Shown piece after piece: positions 9,403 to 56,344 of a DNA stretch of 64,000 nucleotides. Position 1 is the stretch's first letter. Every line of letters starts with the position of its first letter. Made by a program: the position numbers and the translations under genes. Source of the stretch: Cladochytrium replicatum (Eukaryota > Chytridiomycota > Chytridiomycetes > Cladochytriales > Cladochytriaceae). Under the pieces are notes generated by a model, which was given only the letters and a program-made list of their open reading frames with translations, ran no database searches and was not told the DNA's origin. The stretch spans positions 84,851 to 148,850 of the forward strand of contig JAHLKD010000121.1 of assembly GCA_025526935.1 (NCBI GenBank). Reading direction: 5' to 3'.

Positions 9403-9757
9403 TGTTAAATTCTGTGTATACGTGGAGGGCTTACTCATTTTTTGCACAATAGGCTTTTTGTCTTGGGCTTGAGAAGTTTTAATGCTATTGCATGATTTAT
9501 GTTTCGGGCAGCAATACTTTTATTTTCTTTATTGTCATTGCTCCATGTTCATGTCGGTGGTTGTGAATTTCTGTGTGGGAATATTTAGTGCGAGTGTGAG
9601 AGGGGCTGGTCCTTGAGACAGTGGAACAAACCAAACACTCATACCACAGTCACCCTATGTTCACCTGGGCCAAGAGACGGAACCTGGAGCTGTTGTGCTA
9701 GCTACAACACAGCTAAAAACGCCCTACCACTGCTGGGAGAAGCCCTTGGTTTTTAAC
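9403..9757 (+). mobile_element. degenerate solo LTR
   Basis: It begins TGTTAAATTCTGTGTA and ends in GCCCTTGGTTTTTAAC. It shares with the 469-bp LTRs at 51592 and 55247 the blocks GGAGGGCTTAC, TGCACAATAGGCTTTT, AGACAGTGGAACAAACCAAA and GGGCCAAGAGACGGAACCTG. It is about 115 bp shorter through internal deletions, and its last base differs (TAACG for TAACA). The flanks CCTAA (9398-9402) and CCCAA (9760-9764) could be a decayed 5-bp target duplication. No internal region is present, as expected after LTR-LTR recombination. Confidence 0.8.
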
Positions 9758-29524: not shown

Positions 29525-30706
29525 ATGGGGGAGGATGAAAATGCCGAATCACGTGACTTCCGATCACGTGACCGACGCGCCAAAAGACCTGCTGAACATG
29601 AATTGCCCCGTGGTCGCTCCCGTTCTCGTTCCCGATCACATCTGACAGGTGTCCGGGTTCTTGCTGCTGTGGCTGCTCCCTCGAGTGTTGCATCTCTGGC
29701 CGATCTCCGTGTCGTTCTCACTCAGATGCGATCTGTTTGTGCAACCTTTGATCCGTTGGCGATGCTGGATCCTATGCTTGCACATTTGCCGAGGGACACT
29801 CCTGCTGAATTTTTTAGTGTTTGTCGTGATATGGCCGAGGATCTGGTGGGTCGCTTTGGGAGGCCGCTGCCTTCGCCTTCACCTCCGGTTGCCCCTGTCT
29901 CCCGCCATGATGATGTGGCTGCGCCTGTGTGCCTTCCCCCTAGACAACTGCATGGTAATCCTTCAATTCAGGACGATCTTGGGAACTCTGGTGCTCCTGG
30001 CCCTCGCCCCCCGTCTAGTCGACCTGCCCCACGTGGACCTCGTGGTCCACGCACTTATGCTGCTGCTGCTGCCAATGCCCGTGCCCGTGTGCTTGAGAGT
30101 CTCCCCACACTGAGTGCTGAATCTCGTACAGAAGCTGTCAGGACTGCCCTTGCTGGTCGTGACCCCACTTCGAATGTCAGCCTTCGTGGCCCTCGGCCTG
30201 TCGTATTCTATCCTCCGACCTCTCCGCTGCTGGTCTCCCCACCTGCTGATCTTCAGGCCCGTGTGGATGATTTGACCACTGTGTACATCAAGGACATCAT
30301 GAGACAGCGGCTCGGCTTTGTGCGGACCATGCTGAGGGCTCTCTTGGGCGATGAGGTGGTGCGTGGTATCCGCCACATCAGTTTCGTTGGTCGCAACATT
30401 GCTTCCTTTATCTGTATTCGCTCAACCGCAATTGCTCTCCGTGCGCACTTCTCCACCCAGGAAGCTTCCACTGACGAATCAAACCCTGACTTTCTTCGCC
30501 GAGCCTCTACTCTGCCTTTGGAGCAGCGGGAGGCTGCGGTCAGGGAAGTTGTTCACAAGAGATATGCACATATCCTCAGTTCAGTTACTGATCCTGCTAT
30601 TTTCCTGTATGTCCGTGGTCAGCTCCCCATGGATGCTCAGGAAACTGTGCTGGACAGTGCCCGCGGGATTGCGCGTCAGCCTCGCTCAACCCATCTTCGT
30701 CAATGA
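29525..30706 (+). CDS. LINE ORF1 protein
   Basis: From the first ATG the frame gives 393 aa; the frame is open upstream to the poly(A) junction at 29371, so the true N-terminus may be lost. Early residues are Arg/Ser-rich (RSRDRRAKRPAEHELPRGRS). The middle is Pro/Ala-rich. The last 150 residues are helical and charged (YIKDIMRQRLGFVRTMLRAL, then REAAVREVVHKRYAHILSSV). This fits a nucleic-acid-binding ORF1, although no CCHC zinc knuckle or RRM was seen. The stop TGA overlaps the ATG of ORF2 by four bases (ATGA), suggesting termination-reinitiation. Related sequence is encoded by the half-LINE units at 59792-62310. Confidence 0.75.
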   Translation: MGEDENAESRDFRSRDRRAKRPAEHELPRGRSRSRSRSHLTGVRVLAAVAAPSSVASLADLRVVLTQMRSVCATFDPLAMLDPMLAHLPRDTPAEFFSVCRDMAEDLVGRFGRPLPSPSPPVAPVSRHDDVAAPVCLPPRQLHGNPSIQDDLGNSGAPGPRPPSSRPAPRGPRGPRTYAAAAANARARVLESLPTLSAESRTEAVRTALAGRDPTSNVSLRGPRPVVFYPPTSPLLVSPPADLQARVDDLTTVYIKDIMRQRLGFVRTMLRALLGDEVVRGIRHISFVGRNIASFICIRSTAIALRAHFSTQEASTDESNPDFLRRASTLPLEQREAAVREVVHKRYAHILSSVTDPAIFLYVRGQLPMDAQETVLDSARGIARQPRSTHLRQ

Positions 30707-33700
30707 TTAGTGTTCGAGTTGGTACCTTCAATTGTCGCAATTTGAGCTTTGGAGTTCTTGATTCACTGTTTCGTTTTATGCGCGCAAATCACATTGTTTT
30801 TCTGCTCCTGACTGAAACACACCTTTTTCCTTTAGACCCGCTGCCTTCTCCAGATTTGATTTTTGACACTCGTTTTTCTCCTGGGTCATCGGGTACACGA
30901 CGGGCTGGTGTGGGAGTCTTGATCAATCGCAGTCTTTGTAGAGCTTCTGATTTCCGTCTCGTTTCTAGTTATGGTGGCACCTCTCTATGGTTTACATTTC
31001 GTGGGCTTTTGGTTGGAGGGTATTATTTGCCTCCGTGTGGTATTGCTCAGGACCCCTTCCTTGAAGAGTTTATTGCTTCACTTCCTCAACATGTCCCGTC
31101 GTCTCCGTGCCCTGTTCTTTTGTTGGGCGATTTCAATGCCCGTTTTTTAGCTACTGGTGATCATTCTTCAAATCGTAGGGGTAGGTTGTTTGAGCAATTT
31201 ATTTCTGCGGCTAGTTTCTCTCTAGTTAAGCACCCTTCCTGTCATAACCCCACATTTTCTTCTCGCAATGGTGACTCCATTATCGATTTGTTGTTTGTCA
31301 ATCCTCTGCTTCAATGTGATCCTATTTCTTACATAGTTCATAGTCGTCTAGCCGACGGCGAGTTTATGCCTTGGGCTTCTGACCATTTTCCGGTTACAGC
31401 TGTTTTTTCTTTTGCTCCTCCCAATGCCAGCGCTCCCTCTGCTGCACCCCCCCACAAGCGCTGGGCTGCTCATCTGTTGCGTGAACCTGCTGTCTTTCAA
31501 GCAATGGAGGATGTGGGACATTTGTTTTTTGATCCCACCCTTGCTGATGTCAATGCTGCACTCAGTCCAATTTTAGAAGCTCCCGCCTTTGCCCAAATGT
31601 CTGTGGATGTTGCACAGGGATGTATTGACTCTGCATTGGATATTATTTTGTCCTTTGTTACTTCATGTGCTGCTTGTGTCATTGGACCCCCCAGTTTAGT
31701 TCGCCGTCGCCCTGCCCTGCCATTGTTGCCGCCGCATTTAGTGGCCTTGCGACGGAGCTACTTACTTGCTCATAAGCACTATTTAGCTGTTTCTTCCTGT
31801 GATGATCCTGATCCTGGTTTAGTTGAGTATTGCCACTTGGAGCGTGACCGGCTATCGCGTGAGCGTGTCAAAGCTTTTCGTACTTGGTCTCTTTCTCAGC
31901 GAGCTCGAGAGGCTTCTGGCGACAATATGTTTAGTTCTTCTCCTAGTTCTTTAACCGAGGTTAGCAAAGTTCTTTCCACCGCGCGTAGGTGTCATCAACG
32001 GCGCTCAGCTGCAAGTGGTTTATTGTCTGATCCTGCCTCTTTATCTCATTATCGCAATCACTTTGCCTCCGTTTATCAGACTCAGTTTGCACAATCCTCT
32101 GCCAGTGCAGAACACGTTCGTCTACATGCGCTGAATGATTCTGTGTCAGTTAGTGTTAGTGACTTTGTTTGTGCTATTCGTTCTTCCCCAAACAACTCTG
32201 CTCCTGGCTCAAACCATATTCCAGCTGAGTTATTTAAGCCGTTAGCTTCTGATGTTGCTATCCTTTTTGTTCAACTTTCAAACGCTATTTTCCGTTCAGG
32301 TTTGTCGCCCTCTGCCTGGAATGCTGGCTTGTTGTTACCTGTTTGGAAGAATAAGGGCTCCATTGGTGATATTAGTCAGTACCGCCCCATTACTTTAACC
32401 AATGTTGATAGAAAAATCTTTGAGCGTACCCTGCTTCCTATGCTTGTAGCTCATGTTGGTAAACTTGATCCCGCCCAAGCTGGTTTCCAGGCCAATCGTT
32501 CAGGTGTTGAGTGTGTTTTTGCATTAGATGCTACCCTTCGACGGGCTTCCCGCACTGCTCTGCCTTATTGTGTTACTTTCTTAGATATTAAAGCAGCGTA
32601 TGATACTGTGCATAGGCCTCTTTTGTGGGAACGTCTTCGTCAATTTCCCAGAATTCCAAACCGTTTGATCTCTGTTTTGATGAGTATGTTTGATCGTTGT
32701 TCTTCTCAGGTTGTTATAGAGAATCGTTCTTCTGATTTGTTTTCGCTTCCACGAGGTCTTTTTCAAGGTTCTGTTTTGTCTCCGTTCTTGTACTCAGTTT
32801 TCATCAATCCTTTAGCACAGCTCCTTTGTCGTGAATCTTCTCATCTTGCTAGGTTTTCTTATAACACTCCTGTTTTCAATTCGTTGTTTTTTGCTGATGA
32901 CATAGCTTTGTTTTCTGCCACCCCTGAGCAGGCCCAACGTGCATTGAAAATTTGTGAAGATTTTGCTTTAGCTTCTCATTTTGTGTTTTCACCTTCAAAG
33001 TGTGCTGTGTTATCTTCTCAACGGTTACCCACCCCCTTGAAGCTTCATGGCTCTGCCCTCCCTGTAGAGGTTTCATTTAGATACCTTGGTCACTATTTTA
33101 CTATTGAAGGGTTTGATCTTGCTGCAACTATTGATCATCGCTTAGAGAAAGCTCGTGCCTCATTGTATCTTTTTGCACCTTATGTCTCGTACTTTGGTGG
33201 GTCTGCTCCTCGTGTTGCCAGGTTGTTGTTTTTGTCTTTTATTAGACCTTCACTTGAGTTTGGTTTTGCACTTATTCGGCCTTCCACTGCTCAGCTTCAG
33301 GTACTCGAGCGTTTTTGTTATCATGCACTGTGTCGTCTGTTTTCGATAGCCCATACCACTTCGCGTGTTGGTTTGTTGCTGTTAGCGCAAATTCCTACTT
33401 TTGAGTTCAGGCTGAAGTACCTTCAGGCACGTATGTTTGCTCGCTGGTCTAGTGATTCCAGCCCTCTGTTACCAGCTGCTGTGTTGCAATTCTATCGGTC
33501 ATCTCCAGTCGGTTATGGTTCATCTCCTTATTTTTCCGCTTGTCACAATGATCTCATTGTTCCTATGCCTGTTGTGCTCCCACTTCATCCGTTGATGTTG
33601 CATTTTCAGTCTTTAGCTGTTGCGCATAATGGACCAATTGCAGTTTCGTTTGCCCCTGTCCGCAATTTGAAACTTCGCCACCCTTTGTTGCTACCCCCAC

Positions 33701-34083
33701 ACCAACATCTCCCAACAGTATGTCTTCGTTTGTTCCTGCTATATCGGCTTGGCTGCCTGTTTCCAAACCCCCGACCTTATTGTAGGAACTGTCATGATGC
33801 CCCTGAAGTGTCGCGTGCCCATGTCTCTGTGTGTCTACATTTGCGTGCTAGTTTGTCTGCTAGTTTTGATTTAGGCCCGCCTGACGATCCCCGCCTACCT
33901 CTTGACATTGCAATTGATATGCTTTCACCACGACCTTTTTATCCTTCCCCTGCTTTTTCCCAGGAGGTTCTTGTTCTTCGTGCACTTAACCGCATTTGGT
34001 CAAACTGTCTTGGTTATGAGTTAGTTTTGTCTCCAGCTCCTGATTGTATCTTGTCTGCTTTTGTTGATTTGGATATGCCTTAG
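30703..34083 (+). CDS. LINE ORF2: endonuclease-reverse transcriptase
   Basis: 1,126 aa with no internal stop. The N-terminal apurinic-like endonuclease has GTFNCRNLSFG, LLTETHLF, LLGDFNARF and a final SDHFPVTAVF, so all catalytic blocks are present. The reverse transcriptase follows from about residue 530: YRPITLTNVDRKIFERTLLP, AQAGFQANRS, FLDIKAAYDTVHRPLLW, LPRGLFQGSVLSPFLYSVF, and the catalytic FADDIALF at about 732. The C-terminus has a Cys/His cluster CRNCHDAPEVSRAHVSVCLH. All motifs needed for target-primed reverse transcription look intact, so the copy could be active. The LINE clade was not assigned. Confidence 0.92.
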   Translation: MISVRVGTFNCRNLSFGVLDSLFRFMRANHIVFLLLTETHLFPLDPLPSPDLIFDTRFSPGSSGTRRAGVGVLINRSLCRASDFRLVSSYGGTSLWFTFRGLLVGGYYLPPCGIAQDPFLEEFIASLPQHVPSSPCPVLLLGDFNARFLATGDHSSNRRGRLFEQFISAASFSLVKHPSCHNPTFSSRNGDSIIDLLFVNPLLQCDPISYIVHSRLADGEFMPWASDHFPVTAVFSFAPPNASAPSAAPPHKRWAAHLLREPAVFQAMEDVGHLFFDPTLADVNAALSPILEAPAFAQMSVDVAQGCIDSALDIILSFVTSCAACVIGPPSLVRRRPALPLLPPHLVALRRSYLLAHKHYLAVSSCDDPDPGLVEYCHLERDRLSRERVKAFRTWSLSQRAREASGDNMFSSSPSSLTEVSKVLSTARRCHQRRSAASGLLSDPASLSHYRNHFASVYQTQFAQSSASAEHVRLHALNDSVSVSVSDFVCAIRSSPNNSAPGSNHIPAELFKPLASDVAILFVQLSNAIFRSGLSPSAWNAGLLLPVWKNKGSIGDISQYRPITLTNVDRKIFERTLLPMLVAHVGKLDPAQAGFQANRSGVECVFALDATLRRASRTALPYCVTFLDIKAAYDTVHRPLLWERLRQFPRIPNRLISVLMSMFDRCSSQVVIENRSSDLFSLPRGLFQGSVLSPFLYSVFINPLAQLLCRESSHLARFSYNTPVFNSLFFADDIALFSATPEQAQRALKICEDFALASHFVFSPSKCAVLSSQRLPTPLKLHGSALPVEVSFRYLGHYFTIEGFDLAATIDHRLEKARASLYLFAPYVSYFGGSAPRVARLLFLSFIRPSLEFGFALIRPSTAQLQVLERFCYHALCRLFSIAHTTSRVGLLLLAQIPTFEFRLKYLQARMFARWSSDSSPLLPAAVLQFYRSSPVGYGSSPYFSACHNDLIVPMPVVLPLHPLMLHFQSLAVAHNGPIAVSFAPVRNLKLRHPLLLPPHQHLPTVCLRLFLLYRLGCLFPNPRPYCRNCHDAPEVSRAHVSVCLHLRASLSASFDLGPPDDPRLPLDIAIDMLSPRPFYPSPAFSQEVLVLRALNRIWSNCLGYELVLSPAPDCILSAFVDLDMP

Positions 34084-43988: not shown

Positions 43989-46436
43989 TTAAGACGACAA
44001 CATATCTGCAATAAGCACACCATCCCCACCAACCGCAGCGTCCGTAACGTGCTCCACACCAGCCCGCACAGGATTAATTACAGTCCCCACAGCGGTGAAA
44101 GTCTCATCAATAATCTCTGGATATTTTGCTGGCTCTCCCATTTCTGCTTCTATGGCTTCGGTGTTGTTCAATATTGCATCCTCCATCACAACGTCTCCCG
44201 AAGTATGTCTTGGTACAGAGCTCTCCGCACCTTCTAACAACGCAATTCTCTCCCGTGTCGAAAGCTTATCCAACGCCTTCTTGCTCTGAGTGCAACCCGT
44301 CGTCATCTCAGCAGCGCTGCCCTCCCCATTCTCTGTGATCGAAGTGTCCGTCACTCCCGCTTCCTCTGCAACCTTTTTCGCCACTTCTGAAATTGTTTCC
44401 ACGCATTCAGCGAAATCTCGATTTGGTCCTGCTTCGCTTGTTTCGACGATTGCAACCACATCGTCTGAAGCTTCCACATGCCCTTGCATTGATGAGCCCA
44501 GCCCGCTCGCCAAGATAGGTTCCAAGAAATCATACGCCATATACCATCGAAACCGATCCGCATCCGCTTGTCCAAACTTCATTCCGTCATCGGACGCGTC
44601 GTCCACTGCACCGTCTCCTTTTGTTGCAAGAGCGAAGCTTTGTGAGGCCTTTGCTTTTGCACATAGGATGCAGAAGACACCGCAACTGCTCGCGTCCATT
44701 TGCTGCGGACAGACCGCGACAACCGCTGGCCAGGATGAAAACTCGTCCGCGCTCATGTTGAGAGAGTCCGCTGCGTTTGGGGAAGTTGTTTTTGATGAAG
44801 GTCTCAAGGTGGAGTCATCGAAGACAAGCTCGACATCTAAGCTCGCGTCTGGTTGAGAATTCAATTCCAGAAAGTCGGTCGTCTGGGCGGCTGGAGGTTT
44901 TGATCTTGAAATCACGTCGGAATGATTTTGCTGGCTGTCCTCGACTATTGGTATTGGGGGCATAAATGGAGTTTGTCCATTTGCCTTTTGAGTTTCTAGG
45001 ATTGTACCTAGCTTTGGGTTCGATTCCTTCAAAATCGATTGCACAGCGTCATCTACAGTCGCTGTTACTTCGGCATGGTTCAATTCGCTCATGTCCGCCA
45101 GAGTGGATATTAATTCGTTGTACTTTGGTGGATTTCGTTCCTCACTAATTCCAGTCTCCCGATCAGAACAAAAATGTCCATTCAACGCATGATCATTTGC
45201 CTTTGAATCGAAAAAAGGACTGAATGATTCTTCAGCGGATGCATCTCGCTGAATGTCGGGCACGTCTGATTTCGTCATGAGGGGGGCTACGCGCGCAAGA
45301 AACTCTTGCCTCAAGTACCACTTAAGCGAACTCAAGACTTTCTTCCCGTATGACGCTGGTCCTCTCATGCTGTCAAAAAACTCTAGCCGTCGTCTTGCCA
45401 GATCAATTATAGCCAAGCACCTAGTTGCCACGTTTAAGCAAGTGGACGAACTGGATGGAGACTGTAAACTCACCAATGCTTTCGGCCCTTATGAACAGGG
45501 ACCACAACCATTCGATAAGAAAAGATCCCCAGCGGGTTGCGGCGAGTAAAGTAGGCAACACCATTGTAGTCAAGTGGATCTTTTGAGTCTTTGATCTGCA
45601 TGTCAACAACTTCCACCTCCACATCTGGTACATCTTCCACTTCCACACCGGTATCGTCTGAAACCACCATAACTGCAGGATCCTCTCCGATAATCGTCTC
45701 ATCATCTGTCTCCACTCGAATACGCTTTCGGGGTTTCAATGCTGTTCTTGTTCGAGGACGCTTAGGAGTTTTCCGACGACCAAGTTTATTCAGCGTTGTG
45801 TGGAAGAAGGTGGACATAAACCTTGTTGAAGGGAATTGTGGTGCAAGGATCGATAAATACCTAGGATTTCTACAATTAGCTGAATATCCGTAAAGCTTAC
45901 GCGACTGACCCATTGATGTGCACATCGGATAGCCAGCCGGATGGTTCTAAAAGCTGCCGGACGAGATTCAACGTAATTGGTTCACCTTTGACTGTCAAAA
46001 GCGTCGCATCCATCGCGGCGCCGGCTGCATTATCCTCAGGAGAAATATCGGTTACCGATTTTTCAGCTCTACTCGATGGAGTGTTCGGACCTCGCTTTCC
46101 ACCTCCTTTCCCACCTCGTTGCTTTGTGGTACCAACCGCGAACGAAGGATCCTCTTCTTCGATATCGTAAGGCTCTGTCAATGAGATGGGATACGAAGTC
46201 GACGCTTCTTTAGTCCGTAGTCTCCCAGAGCGGCGTTTACCGTCCAGCTCGATCATTGGTGCCGACGATTCCCCAGCTACATCCATTACCTCGACTGCAT
46301 CGTCGTCCGCGGGTTTACTATGCAGTGGTGGGGTCGTGATTACGACAGGCATCGGCGGAGGGTTGAGACCTTTTGCGATCAAGAAGGCGTGGAGTTGGTG
46401 GAGGTGCGAGGCCAAGAAAGCAGCACCCAGCGGCAT
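43989..46436 (-). CDS. Ulp1/SENP-type (C48) SUMO protease with large inserts
   Basis: Three exons: 46436-45901, 45860-45474 and 45420-43989, 784 aa; the frame closes. The catalytic domain is recognised by LEPSGWLSDVHINAYLSILA, MSTFFHTTL, VPVHKGRKHW (catalytic His307), LEFFDSM (Asp324, 17 residues later as in Ulp1) and CPQQMDASSCGVFC (Gln548, Cys554). The spacing from Asp to Cys is 230 residues against about 50 in Ulp1. A long polar insert lies between them, and a second acidic insert sits before the His. It should remove SUMO or a related modifier in the nucleus. The 230-aa C-terminal tail is acidic and disordered. The start ATG is 68 bp from the MED7 start on the other strand. Confidence 0.88.
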
Positions 46437-48576: not shown

Positions 48577-48760
48577 CTAGCAATAAGATTCCGTCCACCT
48601 GGACACTTTCTCAACTCATTGACGGTACTTCAGTGATCTCTATCAAGTACAACCAACCTCTCCACAAATGCTACTCGCAATAGGATTCTGTCCACCCGGA
48701 CACTTTCCCAACTCATTGACAGTACTCAGTTGTCTCTATCAAGTACAACTATGTTGATGG
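48577..48760 (-). repeat. two inverted copies of the 4.7-kb repeat unit
   Basis: On the minus strand, two units contain GTTGAGAAAGTGTCCAGGTG / GTTGGGAAAGTGTCCGGGTG, GGACGGAATC / GGACAGAATCC and TTGATAGAGA. They match the repeats at 4678-4916 in opposite orientation. The unit is about 95 bp. Confidence 0.6.
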
Positions 48761-49003
48761 ATGCACATATATGGAACTAGCTACTCCAGTCTTCATCCAC
48801 TACCGACACTGAGGGGAAATAGCCTTACCAGAGACGTCTGGGACAAGTTCATGCGTAATCATACATTACATGAAAGAACTGGCATTTCTAACTATTGGTC
48901 ATGAAGACATCCTCCTTTACTCATTGGAATCTAGTAGAGTTCTGCAAGTGATCACGCGTTGCAGAAAGAATGTGATGCTAATCAGTTTGCTGCTGACAGC
49001 TAT

Positions 49004-49231
49004 TGTTAAAAACCAAGGGCTTCTCCTGGCAGCGGTAGGGCGTCTTTAGCTGTACTGTAGCTAGCACAACAGCTCCAGGTTCCGTCTCTTGGCCCAGTAC
49101 CTGTAAAATAATCGAAACTGATCGCCCGTAATTCTGAGTAATCAGGGAAGTGTTTGTGTAGCCGGTAATACGTTCCTGAGTGAACGCACAAAAAGGTCCA
49201 AAAATGGTGGGTCCTGGATGAAACCACCACC
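49004..49231 (-). mobile_element. LTR fragment joined to retroelement leader
   Basis: Reading the minus strand, 49231-49103 is the leader of the plus element (identical start GGTGGTGGTTTCATCCAGGA, the primer-binding site, then 110 bp matching 52081-52190). It joins at a GT microhomology to 49104-49004, the last 101 bp of an LTR. It is what remains of an element that lost everything between the leader and its 3' LTR. Confidence 0.75.
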
Positions 49232-49708
49232 TGTTAAAAACCAAGGGCTTCTCCTGGCAGCGGTAGGGCGTCTTTAGCTGTACTGTAGCTAGCACAACAG
49301 CTCCAGGTTCCGTCTCTTGGCCCAGTACCTGTTCTCCCAGGTGTGTATATGCCTAATACTCCGACAGGCTGTACACTACACCCAAGCTGGTCAGGCAACC
49401 AGGGAATGCTGTGGTCAAAGACATTGGTCACATCAACTCCTATATTCAAGTGAACAGTGCGTGTGGGCATACCTGTGGTCAAAGACATTGGTCACATCAA
49501 CTCAAAGGACCAAGCCACACCACATTCCCCACTAAATGCCAAGATCACTCCACACAGGACCTGCCAAACATGGATATAAATACATGAAATACAAGTCCAT
49601 AAATAAGAATGAAGAGGGATTGACAAAAAAACTCTCAGGTCAAAGAGAAAAAAGACAACCCAAAGGATAACCCATATAGCAAACAGTCTGATATGCTAGT
49701 TTTTAACA
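49232..49708 (-). mobile_element. 477-bp LTR, 3' copy of minus element
   Basis: On the minus strand it starts TGTTAAAAACTAGCATATCA and ends GCCCTTGGTTTTTAACA. It has the same length as, and appears identical to, the copy at 51111-51587. It contains an internal direct repeat (GTTGATGTGACCAATGTCTT, twice). The last 100 bp are shared with the 469-bp LTR family; the rest is unrelated. It is preceded by a purine-rich CTTCGAGGCGGCATC. Confidence 0.85.
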
Positions 49709-51110
49709 GATGCCGCCTCGAAGACGATACACTGGGTCACCGTGTATCGCTCGTCAAAAAAGACAAAAAAGAAAACATACGATAGAGAAACAGAAGGAAT
49801 GTGTGTGGAGTTCACAACTAAACTTACACAACCCCCAATCCAATATGACTGACTTCGAAATTTAGAAAGGACCAAAGGGATAGAGTACTCTGCTCGTACC
49901 ATTTCAGGCATTCTAGATCAAAGATCAAGGTAGACCACAATGGGCCCATAACATACGAAACCCCAGTGTGGTGGAATCGCAAGCAAAAGCGCAGGTGCAA
50001 AGCTAAACAACAATGCAAGTGCAGAAGCGGTGAACGAGACTAACTAGCAACGTTCTAATGGTAAGTGTCAAGGAACTGAGAGTGCAAGCTGATGAATGCA
50101 AAAATCAGGGATCCTCCATGACAAAACCCAAAGACAAAAGAGTGGAAGCTTGTGCACTAGCAACACCAGCTACGATAGGGGTATATAACACAAAAAATCC
50201 AGATTCAACTGGCGCAGGTGGTTTCTTCAAAAGCCGTTGACACATGTTGGTCTGTAACAGATCGAAAGGAAACCTCTTCATGGTATGCTGTGTCCAGAAA
50301 CCAAGGTGATGTCTATGTGAAGACAACCGTGGGAAACAAAACGCGTCACGTGCTGCGCCACATGCCCGAATTTGATGGAAACTCGTCAACGTGAAGTAGA
50401 CCCCAATCTCCAAGCCCAGAAAAGTCCCGCAAACTTCATGTATCCGCGTTGCGCGCGATGCATCCACAGGCAATGGAGGTGCCATCTCAAGAAACAATGG
50501 AGTTGTTGAAGGAAACAAAGTTCATGATGCATGCATACGGACATGTCACCATAACTCTGCAGGCAGCCAACGAAACCGAGCGAGCAATACACGAATCGAT
50601 TCGCAATGCGTAGGCGATGGTTTTGATAGGCACTTGCCGTGGTCCAGCGAGAACTGACGGATCAAAGCTGAAAGCTTCGAAATGCTGTAGCTCCATGAAT
50701 CCTCCGCCAAATGACGCGAGCTGGGCACCAATCAATCCGGCTTGATGAGACGGTTCTTCTGAGGTACTGTTCGCGACGATCAGACAAGAATTGGCGAAAT
50801 CAAAAATCGAAGACCTCTGGAGCAGACCAAAGGTAGTGAAGTTGGTCAAAAGGCTCAGGAGCAAAGATAGCAACATCAGAAAGCGAGGAAAGCGATGGTC
50901 TGTCGGAATTCCTCTCAAAAAAGTGTGCCAGAGTCCCCAGAGCAAAAAGAAGGTTGAAACCACCAGGGATGCTCGAGATACATAAGGAGCAAAACCCGTT
51001 CGCGTAGGAGGTGAGAATCGATCCTGAGAATCCTCCGTATCTGTAGTTCCATGTGTCGGTCCACACCGACTGAGACAAGAAGGTAATAGTTCCTGGATGA
51101 AACCACCACC
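49709..51110 (-). mobile_element. 1.4-kb internal region of non-autonomous LTR element
   Basis: It lies between two equal 477-bp LTRs. The primer-binding site TGGTGGTTTCATCCAGGA sits two bases inside the 5' LTR (about 51108-51091, minus) and a polypurine-like tract before the 3' LTR. No gag, protease, RT or integrase motif is visible. Minus-strand frames at 50963-50487 (158 aa) and 50518-50105 (137 aa) are open but unrecognised. The base composition is less AT-rich than the LTRs, so it could be captured host sequence. Confidence 0.7.
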
Positions 51111-51587
51111 TGTTAAAAACCAAGGGCTTCTCCTGGCAGCGGTAGGGCGTCTTTAGCTGTACTGTAGCTAGCACAACAGCTCCAGGTTCCGTCTCTTGGC
51201 CCAGTACCTGTTCTCCCAGGTGTGTATATGCCTAATACTCCGACAGGCTGTACACTACACCCAAGCTGGTCAGGCAACCAGGGAATGCTGTGGTCAAAGA
51301 CATTGGTCACATCAACTCCTATATTCAAGTGAACAGTGCGTGTGGGCATACCTGTGGTCAAAGACATTGGTCACATCAACTCAAAGGACCAAGCCACACC
51401 ACATTCCCCACTAAATGCCAAGATCACTCCACACAGGACCTGCCAAACATGGATATAAATACATGAAATACAAGTCCATAAATAAGAATGAAGAGGGATT
51501 GACAAAAAAACTCTCAGGTCAAAGAGAAAAAAGACAACCCAAAGGATAACCCATATAGCAAACAGTCTGATATGCTAGTTTTTAACA
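51111..51587 (-). mobile_element. 477-bp LTR, 5' copy of minus element
   Basis: It has the same boundaries and length as 49232-49708 with no difference noticed in the overlapping translations, indicating a recent insertion. It lies head to head with the 469-bp LTR of the plus element, separated only by GACC (51588-51591). Confidence 0.85.
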
Positions 51588-51591
51588 GACC

Positions 51592-52060
51592 TGTTAAATT
51601 CTGTGTACCCTTGGAGGGCTTACCCATTGTTTTGTGCAATAGGCTTTTCTCTTGGGCTTGAGAAGTTTTTATGCTATTGCTCGATTTATGTTTTGGGCAG
51701 TCATGCTGTTTATTTTCTTTATTGTAATTGTTGAATATTCTTCTGTGTGGGAATATTTATTGCGGTGTGAGGGTGGCTGGTTCCTTGAGACAGTGGAACA
51801 AACCAAACACTCACACACCACAGGTATAAATAAAGGAGACAGTGGAACAAACCAAACACTCACACACCACAGTCTTCCTGGTTAGCAATCCCAGCCTTGA
51901 TTTGTATTAGCCACAGAGTGCTTGTGTGCAACAAGGGAATTTGCTTTATCATCACCCCATATTCAACTGGGCCAAGAGACGGAACCTGGAGCTGTTGTGC
52001 TAGCTAAAGTACAGCTAAACACGCCCTACCGCTGCCAGGAGAAGCCCTTGGTTTTTAACA
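51592..52060 (+). mobile_element. 469-bp LTR, 5' copy of Gag-integrase element
   Basis: It starts TGTTAAATTCTGTGTACCC and ends CCCTTGGTTTTTAACA. It has the same length as the 3' copy at 55247-55715, and all overlapping translations are identical. It contains a direct repeat (GACAGTGGAACAAACCAAAC, twice) and a TATA-like TATAAATAAAGG between the copies. Confidence 0.9.
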
Positions 52061-52062
52061 GG

Positions 52063-52080
52063 TGGTGGTTTCATCCAGGA
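52063..52080 (+). promoter_or_regulatory. primer-binding site
   Basis: TGGTGGTTTCATCCAGGA begins two bases after the 5' LTR. TGG start, position and length fit a tRNA 3'-end primer site. The same 18-mer follows the 5' LTR of the minus element and occurs in the 49103-49231 leader, so all three share a primer. The priming tRNA was not identified. Confidence 0.75.
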
Positions 52081-52208
52081 CCCACCATTTTTGGACCTTT
52101 TTGTGCGTTCACTCAGGAACGTATTACCGGCTACACAAACACTTCCCTGATTACTCAGAATTACGGGCGATCAGTTTCGATTATTTTACGCATTTTTCTG
52201 AGCACAAT

Positions 52209-55190
52209 ATGTCGACAACTTCGAGGGTTCAGGATCGCTTGGCGAGGGCTCATGTTGGACAGCCTTTGGAACCTCGGGAACGATTGCGGCATCTTGCGGA
52301 GCGCTTGGGGGAACCTCGCAATGCGTGGAGGAATGCGTTTTTGTTGATGTATTCATTGGAGGACGTTGCTGGATTTTTGGCCAGTATTGGATCTGGCCAG
52401 ATCGCTGTCCCGAATGCACTTGTGGAATTGCTAAACCGTGCGCGTGAAGAGGGACGCGCTGAATCGGCCGTATCGCTCGAGCAGCTTGAAATCGAGAACG
52501 ATGCACTTGTGATGCAGTGCTCGGCGCTTGCGGATAACTTGGTTCTGGCGACGGATCAGCTTGATCCCATTGATGTTCCTGATGTCGAGGACGATGGAGA
52601 GAAGCGTTGGACTGATTCCCAGACCCAGACCGATTTTTGGGATGCCGATTTATCGAACCATGATGGAATTGGCCAAAACTTGGCAGACCTGCAGCAGGAA
52701 CTGGCTAGTGCTTGTCGAGAGCTTCGCGTTGCACAGGAGAATGCAGCGGAAGCACGGCGCAAGGCAGCCAGTGCTGCAGCGGAGCTAGAGACGGCTCGAT
52801 CGGTGGAGGCAAAGCGAGTTTCAGCTCTGGATGACTTGGAGAAGCAGTTGAAGGTGTCCCAAGAGCTTGCCAGCCAACTCCGCATCGAGGCCGAACTGGT
52901 AGAGGCGGAATTGGCCTCAGTGAAGGCTGCCGGAGCCAGTCTTCGCACTCGTTTGGATCGCGCCAACATACCCGACGGCGAAATGGCGCAGCAGAGCGGG
53001 CGTGGGAGCGAGGTCTCTTCACAAAACGAAAATGGACCTCCAACGTTGGCAGATCGATTTTGTGGTCTGTGGCGAGCAGAATGCAGGGCCAACCACAAAT
53101 TGCGTGAAGCTTTGGATTTATCAATTGCTGAATGTGACAGATTGAAGAGGGATCGTGATCAGATTCGAGCATTACTTGCAGTGTCATCATCATCTGACGA
53201 TCAGCACTCCGATATGCAAGAGCTTGGACCAAAGGACTCGGCATCACAACAAGCTTCCCCAGTTTTACCATCTGCCCAATTTGTTTTGAAAGATGCAGCT
53301 GTACCAACAGTGAAAACACTTGGAACTAGTGATTATCATGGACCTACAGCGGATGTTTTCCAGAGCTTTCCAGTTGGCCAATCTTCCCCTCCACAGGGAA
53401 ACATTGGACTGGAAATTGTTTCAGCACTCCAACAAACTGGGCTTCTCACCAAACGATCAGAGAAGTTAGACCAGAATGCTCTAAACAGCATACCTCTTTT
53501 TGCTGGGACTTCTTCTTCAGGCCAGGCTGATGATGCCAGCTCAAATGAGTTAGGGAAGTTTTTCAAAGCAGTGACAAAAGTTGCAATTAGTCAAGCTTGG
53601 ACAGAACCAATGCAAGCTCAAGCTATGGTGCTACGGTTCAAAGATAATTCTGCAGTGTCACGCTGGTGGGACGATCGTGATGAACAGTGGAGGCGTGAGC
53701 GTGTTCAGGATTTGGAAAAGCCAGCACAGCGTTATCTAGCAATTATAGAAAAAAATAATGGAGATTTGAAGCAGTGCAGTGAGCAAGAGCGAGTCTTTGC
53801 CACCTCTTGGGAATTTATAGATAATATTCTGTATCATAATGCTGGAGGTTGGAAGGTATTTGTACCAACTGAGGTTGCCGAAGCAACTATCCTCCAGGAT
53901 AGACATGAAAGAGGTGGTCATTTTTCTGCTGAAAAAATGTTTGCTGCATTAGCTACAGTCTTCTGGTTTCCAAAGATGCTGCATAAGATCAGGAGATGGG
54001 TCAAAGGTTGCCAGGTGTGTCAAGATCATGCCCGAGCACCCCCTCATTCAACTTTCCTCCGGAATATTGCAGCCATAACTGGTCGTTGGGCTCATTCATC
54101 TTTAGACAATGCAGGTCCATTCTGTGGTTGTCATCCATTGATTGGCATTCTTGTTGTAGTCTGCTGCTTCTCTTCACGATGTCATCTCTACAAGTGTAAC
54201 ATCAACCCAACATCCGAAGAAGTTGGCAATTTGATATACGAGAGATATTATCCACTCCATGGTTTACCAGAGAGATTCACATCAGATAGAGGATCTGCCT
54301 TTGTTAGTGGGATGACGCAGACAGTCCTGAAGCGATTGGGAATCGAGCAGCATTCTAGTACAGCTCATCATCCACAGGCTAATCCATATGCAGAGAGCAC
54401 AGTGAAATTGGCAGTTGCAGTTCTATCCAAATTAGCTGATGCAGTGTACGATGGGGATGACTGTGGGTTAGCATGGGAGCGTTACCTTCCGATGGTTGAG
54501 TTCGCAATCAATTCACAAGTTCGAGCCAGTAATGAACCTTTGGGAGTTACCAGATTTGAACAGGATTTGGGATATAATCCCACTGGTCCAGGAGCCCTTA
54601 TCGATTCGTCAGAACATCGTGCCCTACGGTCAGCTGATGCAGAAAGACTAGTCGATCGATTGAGGGAATTGCAAATCCAGTGCACTACACTTTATTCAGA
54701 ATATCAGGAGTATTATAAAAGAGCTCAGGACACTAAGAGGCCAATTCCAATATTCAAAGTTGGAGACGATGTTATGCTCACCACCAAGCATATGAAGTTC
54801 TATCAACGGAAACTATCGGAATCTTGGGTTGGTCCATTTGTCGTTGAGGAAGTGGGCAAGTATGACACCTACCGTCTTGCACTTCCCAAAAAGTTTTCTC
54901 GTGTCAATCCTTGGTTTCATGTTTCAATGTTGAAGAAGCATGAACCTCCTGCTCCCCGGCAGCAAGGTCGAGATAGGCCAGAACCGGAGCTCGAAGAAGA
55001 TGGTGAATGGTATGAAGTCGAACGAATAGTGGCTCACCGGAAACATCGCGGGAAACTCCAGTTTCGTGTGCGTTGGTTAGGCTATCCGCCCTCTGATGAC
55101 TCCTGGGAACCTGCTGACGAACTGGAAGAACATTCAGCTGACACTGTTGCAGAGTACAAGGAGCGTGCAGGTGTTTTCATTCTTTTTTGA
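52209..55190 (+). CDS. Gag-integrase fusion with chromodomain, RT absent
   Basis: An uninterrupted frame of 993 aa from ATG 52209 (the frame is open back to 52062). Residues 1-490 are Gag-like: alpha-helical, with a long coiled coil (RVAQENAAEARRKAASAAAE) and a capsid-start-like NSAVSRWWDDRDEQWRRER. At about residue 497 it passes directly into the segment preceding integrase (KPAQRYLAIIEKNNGDLKQC), then the HHCC zinc finger (RHERGGHF ... CQVCQ), the catalytic core with Asp in SSLDNAGPF, Asp in TSDRGSAF and Glu in YAESTVK (D-x35-E spacing), the GPF/Y-type region, and a C-terminal chromodomain (WYEVERIVAHRKHRGKLQFR, RWLGYPPSDDSWEP). Protease, reverse transcriptase and RNase H are missing. It must depend on another element for cDNA. 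The group is the Ty3/gypsy chromoviruses. Confidence 0.9.
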   Translation: MSTTSRVQDRLARAHVGQPLEPRERLRHLAERLGEPRNAWRNAFLLMYSLEDVAGFLASIGSGQIAVPNALVELLNRAREEGRAESAVSLEQLEIENDALVMQCSALADNLVLATDQLDPIDVPDVEDDGEKRWTDSQTQTDFWDADLSNHDGIGQNLADLQQELASACRELRVAQENAAEARRKAASAAAELETARSVEAKRVSALDDLEKQLKVSQELASQLRIEAELVEAELASVKAAGASLRTRLDRANIPDGEMAQQSGRGSEVSSQNENGPPTLADRFCGLWRAECRANHKLREALDLSIAECDRLKRDRDQIRALLAVSSSSDDQHSDMQELGPKDSASQQASPVLPSAQFVLKDAAVPTVKTLGTSDYHGPTADVFQSFPVGQSSPPQGNIGLEIVSALQQTGLLTKRSEKLDQNALNSIPLFAGTSSSGQADDASSNELGKFFKAVTKVAISQAWTEPMQAQAMVLRFKDNSAVSRWWDDRDEQWRRERVQDLEKPAQRYLAIIEKNNGDLKQCSEQERVFATSWEFIDNILYHNAGGWKVFVPTEVAEATILQDRHERGGHFSAEKMFAALATVFWFPKMLHKIRRWVKGCQVCQDHARAPPHSTFLRNIAAITGRWAHSSLDNAGPFCGCHPLIGILVVVCCFSSRCHLYKCNINPTSEEVGNLIYERYYPLHGLPERFTSDRGSAFVSGMTQTVLKRLGIEQHSSTAHHPQANPYAESTVKLAVAVLSKLADAVYDGDDCGLAWERYLPMVEFAINSQVRASNEPLGVTRFEQDLGYNPTGPGALIDSSEHRALRSADAERLVDRLRELQIQCTTLYSEYQEYYKRAQDTKRPIPIFKVGDDVMLTTKHMKFYQRKLSESWVGPFVVEEVGKYDTYRLALPKKFSRVNPWFHVSMLKKHEPPAPRQQGRDRPEPELEEDGEWYEVERIVAHRKHRGKLQFRVRWLGYPPSDDSWEPADELEEHSADTVAEYKERAGVFILF

Positions 55191-55231
55191 GTTTATCTGA
55201 TGACATGAGCTTTGGTGACCCAAAAGCTCAT

Positions 55232-55246
55232 CTTCGAGGGGGCACC
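55232..55246 (+). other. polypurine tract
   Basis: TTCGAGGGGGCACC lies directly before the 3' LTR, the expected position for the plus-strand primer. The minus element has a related tract (TTCGAGGCGGCATC) at the equivalent place. Confidence 0.6.
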
Positions 55247-55715
55247 TGTTAAATTCTGTGTACCCTTGGAGGGCTTACCCATTGTTTTGTGCAATAGGCT
55301 TTTCTCTTGGGCTTGAGAAGTTTTTATGCTATTGCTCGATTTATGTTTTGGGCAGTCATGCTGTTTATTTTCTTTATTGTAATTGTTGAATATTCTTCTG
55401 TGTGGGAATATTTATTGCGGTGTGAGGGTGGCTGGTTCCTTGAGACAGTGGAACAAACCAAACACTCACACACCACAGGTATAAATAAAGGAGACAGTGG
55501 AACAAACCAAACACTCACACACCACAGTCTTCCTGGTTAGCAATCCCAGCCTTGATTTGTATTAGCCACAGAGTGCTTGTGTGCAACAAGGGAATTTGCT
55601 TTATCATCACCCCATATTCAACTGGGCCAAGAGACGGAACCTGGAGCTGTTGTGCTAGCTAAAGTACAGCTAAACACGCCCTACCGCTGCCAGGAGAAGC
55701 CCTTGGTTTTTAACA
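55247..55715 (+). mobile_element. 469-bp LTR, 3' copy of Gag-integrase element
   Basis: It has the same boundaries and length as 51592-52060. It is followed by GCTAT, the right-hand member of the 5-bp duplication that flanks the whole composite. Confidence 0.9.
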
Positions 55716-56344
55716 GCTATATCATACTTGAGTACATCTCGTATGATATTAATGCAAGGTACTACATACTTATTTCTCATGGAGAACATGTCATTGTAGA
55801 CAAGATTATAGCTAATCTTCATGTTCTGCTCACAATAGTTATTGTGAACAATCTCTGGGATCTATATCTCCCTATTTGAGAGAATGATATTTATATTAGA
55901 TATTCCTATAAATCTATAGTCACAGGTTAATTATAAAAGCCGAAACGTATATTTGAGTTGTTTGCACAATTCAAAGAGCGTGTGGCGATGTGAGATTTCA
56001 GGTGGCTGTGGCGTGAGAGCGTTGTCAACCTGTCTCCTGAAAGTAAAATAACCTTCAAGTAACTGTCCTTGCTTCTACAGCAATCCGCAAGGCAAAGTCC
56101 GAACACTGGGAGCAAGCGAACCAACCTACTGCTTCTGAACAGGTCACTCAGTAGTCTGTCTAGGATGATCTGTTGCTATTTGCAATGCATTCTTAGATCT
56201 GTGGTCACGTGATCTATTTTTAAGGCCACTAACATATATCTGAACAAATCAAAAACTAATTAAACAAATCAAAAATGAATTAAATTCTTAACAAATCAAA
56301 AATTAATTGAATTCTAAACAAAAGATAGGAAATCCCAATCCACC
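55716..56344. other. AT-rich spacer, nothing recognised
   Basis: Sequence between the composite and the second LINE copy. It contains a simple repeat of AACAAATCAAAAATTAATT-like units (about 56243-56320), where the LINE copy breaks off. No gene was seen. Confidence 0.4.

Follow-up and report, generated by a model that had tools for sequence, protein, structure and literature searches.

Introduction

By the usual account, a long terminal repeat (LTR) retrotransposon enters the genome as one molecule that has a U3 end and a U5 end. Several complementary DNA (cDNA) units may enter a genome together, as in the multimeric Ty1 arrays of yeast, which are head-to-tail and recombination based. Here, we describe a block of LTR retrotransposon sequence in a stretch of 64,000 nucleotides of the chytrid Cladochytrium replicatum (contig JAHLKD010000121.1, positions 84,851 to 148,850; hereafter, the window). 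Two elements of different families, the left and the right element, lie head to head in this block, both of its outer ends are U5 ends, and a single target site duplication encloses it.

The closest described structures are the tandem LTR retrotransposons of rice and other plants, in which several LTRs and internal regions lie within one short target duplication (PMC11899658). As far as the parts covered extend, that study, from 2025, inferred that each of two rice loci received its tandem in one insertion, while the origin was left open between complex insertion and illegitimate recombination (PMC11899658). These plant tandems run head to tail with common LTRs, whereas the main units in C. 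replicatum are inverted without a common LTR, and the tail of the left unit alone resembles such a tandem. The main text of the study contains no match for head-to-head and none for end joining, and the parts covered describe no inverted dimer (PMC11899658). The 2-LTR circle junctions of retroviruses and Ty elements are described, in the portions covered, as cDNA ends joined by end joining (PMC4751563, PMC11912779), and the covered part of one of these sources reports no signs of end joining for the yeast Ty circles (PMC4751563). A 2-LTR circle connects U3 to U5 of one molecule, whereas the block described here would connect U3 to U3 of two molecules, with the product integrated. Among the titles and abstracts listed by searches of open-licence papers, no report of a head-to-head LTR dimer within one duplication was found. 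Head-to-head matches from Arabidopsis were discarded as precedents, as they concern DNA transposons (PMC12312487, in the part covered).

Results

The block occupies positions 49004 to 55715 of the window. It starts with TGTTAAAAACC at 49004 and ends with GGTTTTTAACA at 55715, and both of these are U5 ends, unlike the one U3 and one U5 outer end of a normal single LTR element. The pentanucleotide GCTAT directly adjoins the block on both sides (48999-49003 and 55716-55720). Like other LTR retrotransposon insertions, the block has paired LTRs bounded by TG...CA and a short target duplication; the LTRs of each pair are identical, and the 5-bp duplication surrounds the whole. None of the three sub-blocks tested has a 5-bp duplication of its own: the flanks are CCACC/GACCT for the left element alone, GCTAT/GACCT for the left element with its tail and AGACC/GCTAT for the right element alone. 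In the interior, the LTRs meet U3 to U3 across the four bases GACC (51588-51591). The original prediction, made from this DNA alone, had recognised the equal flanks, the lack of matching duplications on the inner elements and the head-to-head LTRs four bases apart, all of which were borne out. Its description of the outer ends as U5 ends of related LTRs in inverted orientation also holds, but it overlooked a third, partial LTR of 101 bp on the left. The features, in order along the window, are:

48752-49003, plus strand: left part of an unrelated host repeat interrupted by the block (92-98% match to block-free paralogues)
48999-49003: left copy of the target site duplication, GCTAT (flank comparison)
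49004-49104, minus strand: partial left-family LTR, LTR positions 377-477, 101 bp, supplying the left outer U5 end (100% match)
49103-49231, minus strand: leader, positions 1-129 of the right family's internal region (100% match; 2-bp overlap with the partial LTR)
49232-49708, minus strand: left element 3′ LTR, 477 bp, identical to its 5′ LTR
49709-51110, minus strand: left element internal region, 1402 bp, ending ...GGCGGCATC beside the LTR (same unit, with an LTR spacing of 1879 bp, at other loci)
51111-51587, minus strand: left element 5′ LTR, 477 bp, U3 end at 51587, identical to the 3′ LTR
51588-51591: junction GACC, read as GA (complement of TC, the left U3 extension) plus CC (the right U3 extension)
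51592-52060, plus strand: right element 5′ LTR, 469 bp, U3 end at 51592, identical to its 3′ LTR
52061-55246, plus strand: right element internal region, 3186 bp, with a GG spacer, a putative primer site starting TGG and ...GGGGGCACC before the 3′ LTR
52062-55190, plus strand: open frame of 1042 amino acids with integrase zinc-binding, rve core, Tf2-1-like SH3 and chromodomain
55247-55715, plus strand: right element 3′ LTR, 469 bp, supplying the right outer U5 end, identical to the 5′ LTR
55716-55720: right copy of the target site duplication, GCTAT (flank comparison)
55718-56022, plus strand: right part of the interrupted host repeat (about 92% match to paralogues, in which it is contiguous with the left part)

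The CWC22 protein matches that of C. replicatum at 85% identity over 93% of its length, which makes a chytrid fungus close to this species the probable host. We searched the genome (50.5 Mb in 198 contigs, numbered with the prefix C; C121 is the contig of the window) with 304 bp of the left flank. The search returned 41 rows, 39 of them elsewhere in the genome; the other two are the window itself and a short piece nearby in it. Eight paralogous copies, at seven loci, were read from these 39 rows, and all eight are empty, with flanks that run contiguously across one GTTAT. The C variant that turns this pentanucleotide into GCTAT on both sides of the block is missing from all eight. Since the window carries GCTAT twice where the paralogues read have GTTAT, both pentanucleotides are copies of one target, and the C variant was most likely in place before the insertion and duplicated with the target. 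The flanks thus place the block in a single copy of the host repeat, which it entered by one insertion. An inverted dimer inserted as a unit should leave a single outer duplication at an otherwise empty site, which is what the comparison with the paralogues gives (8/8). A chance of about 1 in 1,000 had been proposed for a random 5-bp match; the match is real, and its support is stronger than this figure, because the paralogues carry GTTAT.

The frequency of exact duplications in the left family was estimated by pairing its U3 and U5 outer ends on contigs C1 to C23, for a partial list of 57 U3 ends. A listed U5 end lies within 9 kb of 23 of these 57, and 17 of the 23 pairs have an exact 5-bp duplication. 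The six pairs lacking one are a composite on C3, a putative inversion on C2 (both considered below), a mispaired row on C1, whose LTR does carry its own duplication, and C8:357875, C12:14449 and C23:86797. One of the 17, C1:594966, is an LTR split by other DNA. Two others, C8:943 and C23:478056, have the same flanks, identical over 11 bases on both sides; they may be one event seen twice, for instance if the region is duplicated or if the assembly includes two haplotypes.

The left outer U5 end belongs to the partial LTR and not to the 3′ LTR of the left element. Between these two LTRs lie about 127-129 bp of the right family's leader; where it and the partial LTR overlap, they share a 2-bp microhomology, AC. 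This arrangement indicates that the left partner is a rearranged three-LTR chimera, which refines the two-element dimer of the original prediction while leaving its inverted pair intact. The left element is non-autonomous.

In the right element, the domains of the 1042-amino-acid frame follow the order Integrase_H2C2, rve, SH3_Tf2-1 and Chromo, with the chromodomain C-terminal as in the chromovirus lineage. This order, the 5-bp duplications and the TG...CA ends are those of Ty3/gypsy chromovirus LTR retrotransposons. The two elements differ from these in that no reverse transcriptase (RVT) match was found in the right frame, so the reverse transcriptase/RNase H upstream of the integrase is missing there, and in that Pfam gave no match for the left element's 158-amino-acid frame, the longest found in its internal region. 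The right element matches longer copies over 1660 bp before diverging from them, and it reads as a deletion derivative of these copies. RT_RNaseH_2 has 68 matches in the genome, 13 of them within open frames of 1642-1646 amino acids; two such frames with this domain (C1:146377 and C2:198969, 1643 amino acids each) are placed by their coordinates inside 8.3-kb right-family copies. Reverse transcriptase is presumably supplied by these longer copies.

The last 95 bp of the LTR are 97.9% alike between the two families, which also have the first 20 bp of their internal regions in common; no similarity was found between their U3 regions beyond a common TGTTAAA start. At two loci (L032 and L040), left-family internal regions follow a right-family U5, forming LTR hybrids of the two families. 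Because such hybrids exist, the RNAs of the two families appear to have been reverse transcribed together.

Integrase normally trims two extra bases at cDNA ends, and TGG is the usual start of the primer site. The last two bases before the 3′ LTR are TC in 42/42 left-family and CC in 4/4 right-family occurrences, counted where a purine-rich tract was recognised and with overlapping loci counted more than once. After U5, both families have GG and then TGG, and the GG spacer separates U5 from TGGT in 79/79 occurrences. With TC or CC at U3 and GG at U5, both cDNA ends fit a trimming of two nucleotides, and we infer that two bases are removed from each cDNA end in these families. Given such trimming, GA+CC is the only sequence that a blunt join between the U3 ends of the two families can give, and it is the one seen at C121. 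This reading was set down before the answers of the junction searches; the GATC expected for a left-left pair was derived from it and was not set beforehand.

The junction searches used exact LTR ends with gaps of 0-20 bases, so diverged copies are missed. They found three places: C121 (GACC), C3 (a left-left pair with GATC, that is, GA+TC) and C57 (a U5-TC-U3 tandem). For tail-to-tail U5-U5 joins, the exact U5 pattern within 20 bp returned only the C57 tandem. U5 ends followed by GG without a primer site occur in 14 rows, as a raw count. CC precedes right-family U3 ends in four rows (C121, C67, C44 and C90), of which C67 looks like an internal 3′ junction.

On C3 (within 376.6-379.4 kb of the contig), a full left element faces one shortened LTR in head-to-head orientation, and the U5 ends lie outside. 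The outer duplication is CTCGA/CTCGA, and no duplication was found on the inner element itself. The original prediction had proposed a search for further GACC junctions and for the composite at other loci; no exact GACC junction was found beyond C121, and C3 is a second head-to-head composite with its own duplication. The junction and flanks indicate that C3 is an independent second case following the same junction rule. In its shortened LTR, base 13 is joined to base 152 through an 8-nt filler, GGTTAGTT (L066:3978-4000), which extends the preceding TAG in phase with the genome's telomere-like repeat. This 10-nt repeat, GGGTTAGTTA, was seen at the right ends of C5, C2, C3 and C8 (L079, L080, L081 and L083), four of the nine contig ends fetched; it is unusual beside TTAGGG, the common telomere repeat. 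At the end of C5 (L002:1504-2484), a copy of the right family breaks off at internal position 373, and the telomere-like repeat follows without a gap; this may be a healed break.

Other composites carry further joins within single duplications. C57 has a tandem of two left elements, differing at 8 of 1402 internal positions, within CAAGG, and TC is retained at the U5-U3 junction between them. On C39, one GAAAC duplication encloses a left element whose second LTR breaks at base 69, then 376 bp of foreign DNA, and then a left LTR with TC before it; the TC is thus retained at the U3 end joined to the foreign fragment. This fragment (L069:3543-3918) codes for part of a CEP19-like protein, antisense to the element (Pfam E-value 1.6e-8). 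C80 contains, inside one GCAGG, a left LTR, a right internal region, a right LTR, a partial left internal region and a left LTR; its GGTTTTT junction fits an untrimmed U5 end join or a plain internal deletion in a tandem, two origins that are not separable. C6 holds a head-to-tail tandem with a common LTR. Further composites may exist at C143:9807, where a U5 end runs into GG and then into the further LTR-like sequence TTTAACAGG, at C100:2773 and C100:2997, where U5 ends with the same neighbour are repeated 224 bp apart, and at C12:704739, where a U5 end lies 172 bp from another.

Elsewhere in the window, a frame of 1126 amino acids (30703-34083) with endonuclease and reverse transcriptase domains represents a non-LTR element of the long interspersed nuclear element (LINE) type. 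Diverged partial LTR pieces of both families (9403-9757, 82-94% identity) form an older copy. A 495-amino-acid frame on the minus strand (43989-45476) matches Ulp1 protease weakly, with a score under the curated cut-off. A search against plasmid proteins gave a single weak match, of no use.

Discussion

Very probably, the block stems from two different cDNAs that had been connected by their U3 ends ahead of integration, and integrase then inserted the inverted dimer through its two U5 ends. This agrees with the original prediction of an inverted dimer cDNA integrated by its U5 ends, which is supported by the single outer duplication, the lack of inner ones, the empty paralogues and the junction bases. 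Two molecules are needed because the partners' U3 regions are unlike, which also excludes a hairpin or fold-back of a single molecule at C121. The process would start from two linear cDNAs of one reverse-transcription pool, a chimera of the non-autonomous left family and a member of the right family lacking reverse transcriptase, with enzymes probably provided by longer family copies that carry reverse transcriptase. Their U3 ends would have been joined to each other before integration, both still with two extra bases. The untrimmed bases at the junction imply joining before end trimming, hence before integration, when the molecules were probably extrachromosomal. As only the U5 ends would be left free, the integrase would synapse two U5 ends and insert the inverted dimer in one concerted step, with duplication of GCTAT; one concerted U5/U5 integration gives one 5-bp duplication.

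Several observations weigh against this reconstruction. In the exact-end genome search, the GACC junction was found only at C121, and the structure and allele status of the block are those given by the assembly. The left partner was already rearranged, which adds at least one further joining or template-switching step to its history. On C3, GATC is a perfect palindrome, and a single-molecule fold-back is possible for that locus alone. At the C57 junction TC is kept and GG is not, and the outer U3 end there has two bases without a match next to CAAGG (one, if the duplication is taken as TCAAGG), so the simple rule does not hold for every junction. Finally, TC precedes outer U3 ends only mildly above chance, at 19 of the 162 left-family U3 ends without the internal tract next to them, against about 10 expected, and a general excess of retained U3 extensions was set aside on this count. 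Seven of the 19 are accounted for: four are the composite junctions on C3, C39, C57 and C121, one is the putative C2 inversion, C1:140605 is an ordinary insertion flanked on each side by GATAC, and at C1:114521 the TC lies inside the copy's own duplication, AGCTC.

The U3-U3 join might also have arisen during reverse transcription, by an end-to-end jump from one cDNA end onto the other without ligation, followed by U5/U5 integration. Some reverse transcriptases are known to jump end to end, the same GA+CC junction would result, and the hybrids of the left and right families agree with a switch of templates within the same pool. However, such a jump needs strand switching between two finished double-stranded ends, and the CEP19-fragment joins and the 8-nt filler at C3 resemble end joining more closely, without excluding a jump. 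The sequence does not separate the two routes and leaves the choice undecided; we favour a join by host end-joining enzymes and consider template jumping unlikely.

Two independent normal insertions could instead have been united later by ectopic recombination, inversion or deletion. Such a route appears to operate in this genome, as the flanks of a C2 locus (L019, C2:71540-75209; CATAA, GAATG, TTATG and CATTC) fit a 364-bp host segment that was inverted between two oppositely oriented elements. It leaves unlike outer and complementary inner flanks, whereas at C121 the outer flanks are equal and the inner gap is 4 bp, and the paralogues read indicate no loss of host sequence at the site, all of which makes it very improbable here. 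We give a similarly low probability to an assembly artefact: the arms are inverted repeats of 98-99% identity and could be misjoined, but a misjoin would not give both host flanks an equal duplication with a base missing from the eight paralogues read, would not reproduce the two U3 extensions at the junction and would not recur on a different contig. The least credible is a nested insertion of one element into the edge of the other, for although the elements abut and an interrupted LTR of the same family exists elsewhere (L078, rejected as a full-length copy because it is an LTR split by other DNA), the expected inner 5-bp duplication is absent from the inner boundary and GACC is the sum of two U3 extensions. 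Autointegration was rejected by reasoning, as it uses trimmed ends and would lose GA and CC.

If two cDNAs were indeed joined before integration, the chromosome would appear to preserve a free-DNA intermediate, in which two different cDNAs with untrimmed ends were connected and then inserted through like ends, and integrase could use a U5/U5 pair in nature. Retained 2-nt ends point to a pre-integration origin, and they would allow a direct check of whether compound LTR insertions form before or after integration, which the rice tandem study, in the parts covered, did not settle (PMC11899658). We also propose, tentatively and with somewhat more doubt than confidence, that this chytrid routinely joins free cDNA end to end before integration, to other cDNA, to broken cDNA or to host gene fragments, and that its integrase accepts any product with two usable ends, including a U5/U5 pair. 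If this is true, compound elements and captured host exons, such as the CEP19 piece on C39, would come from one pre-integration joining route, with occasional telomere-like filler at such joins.

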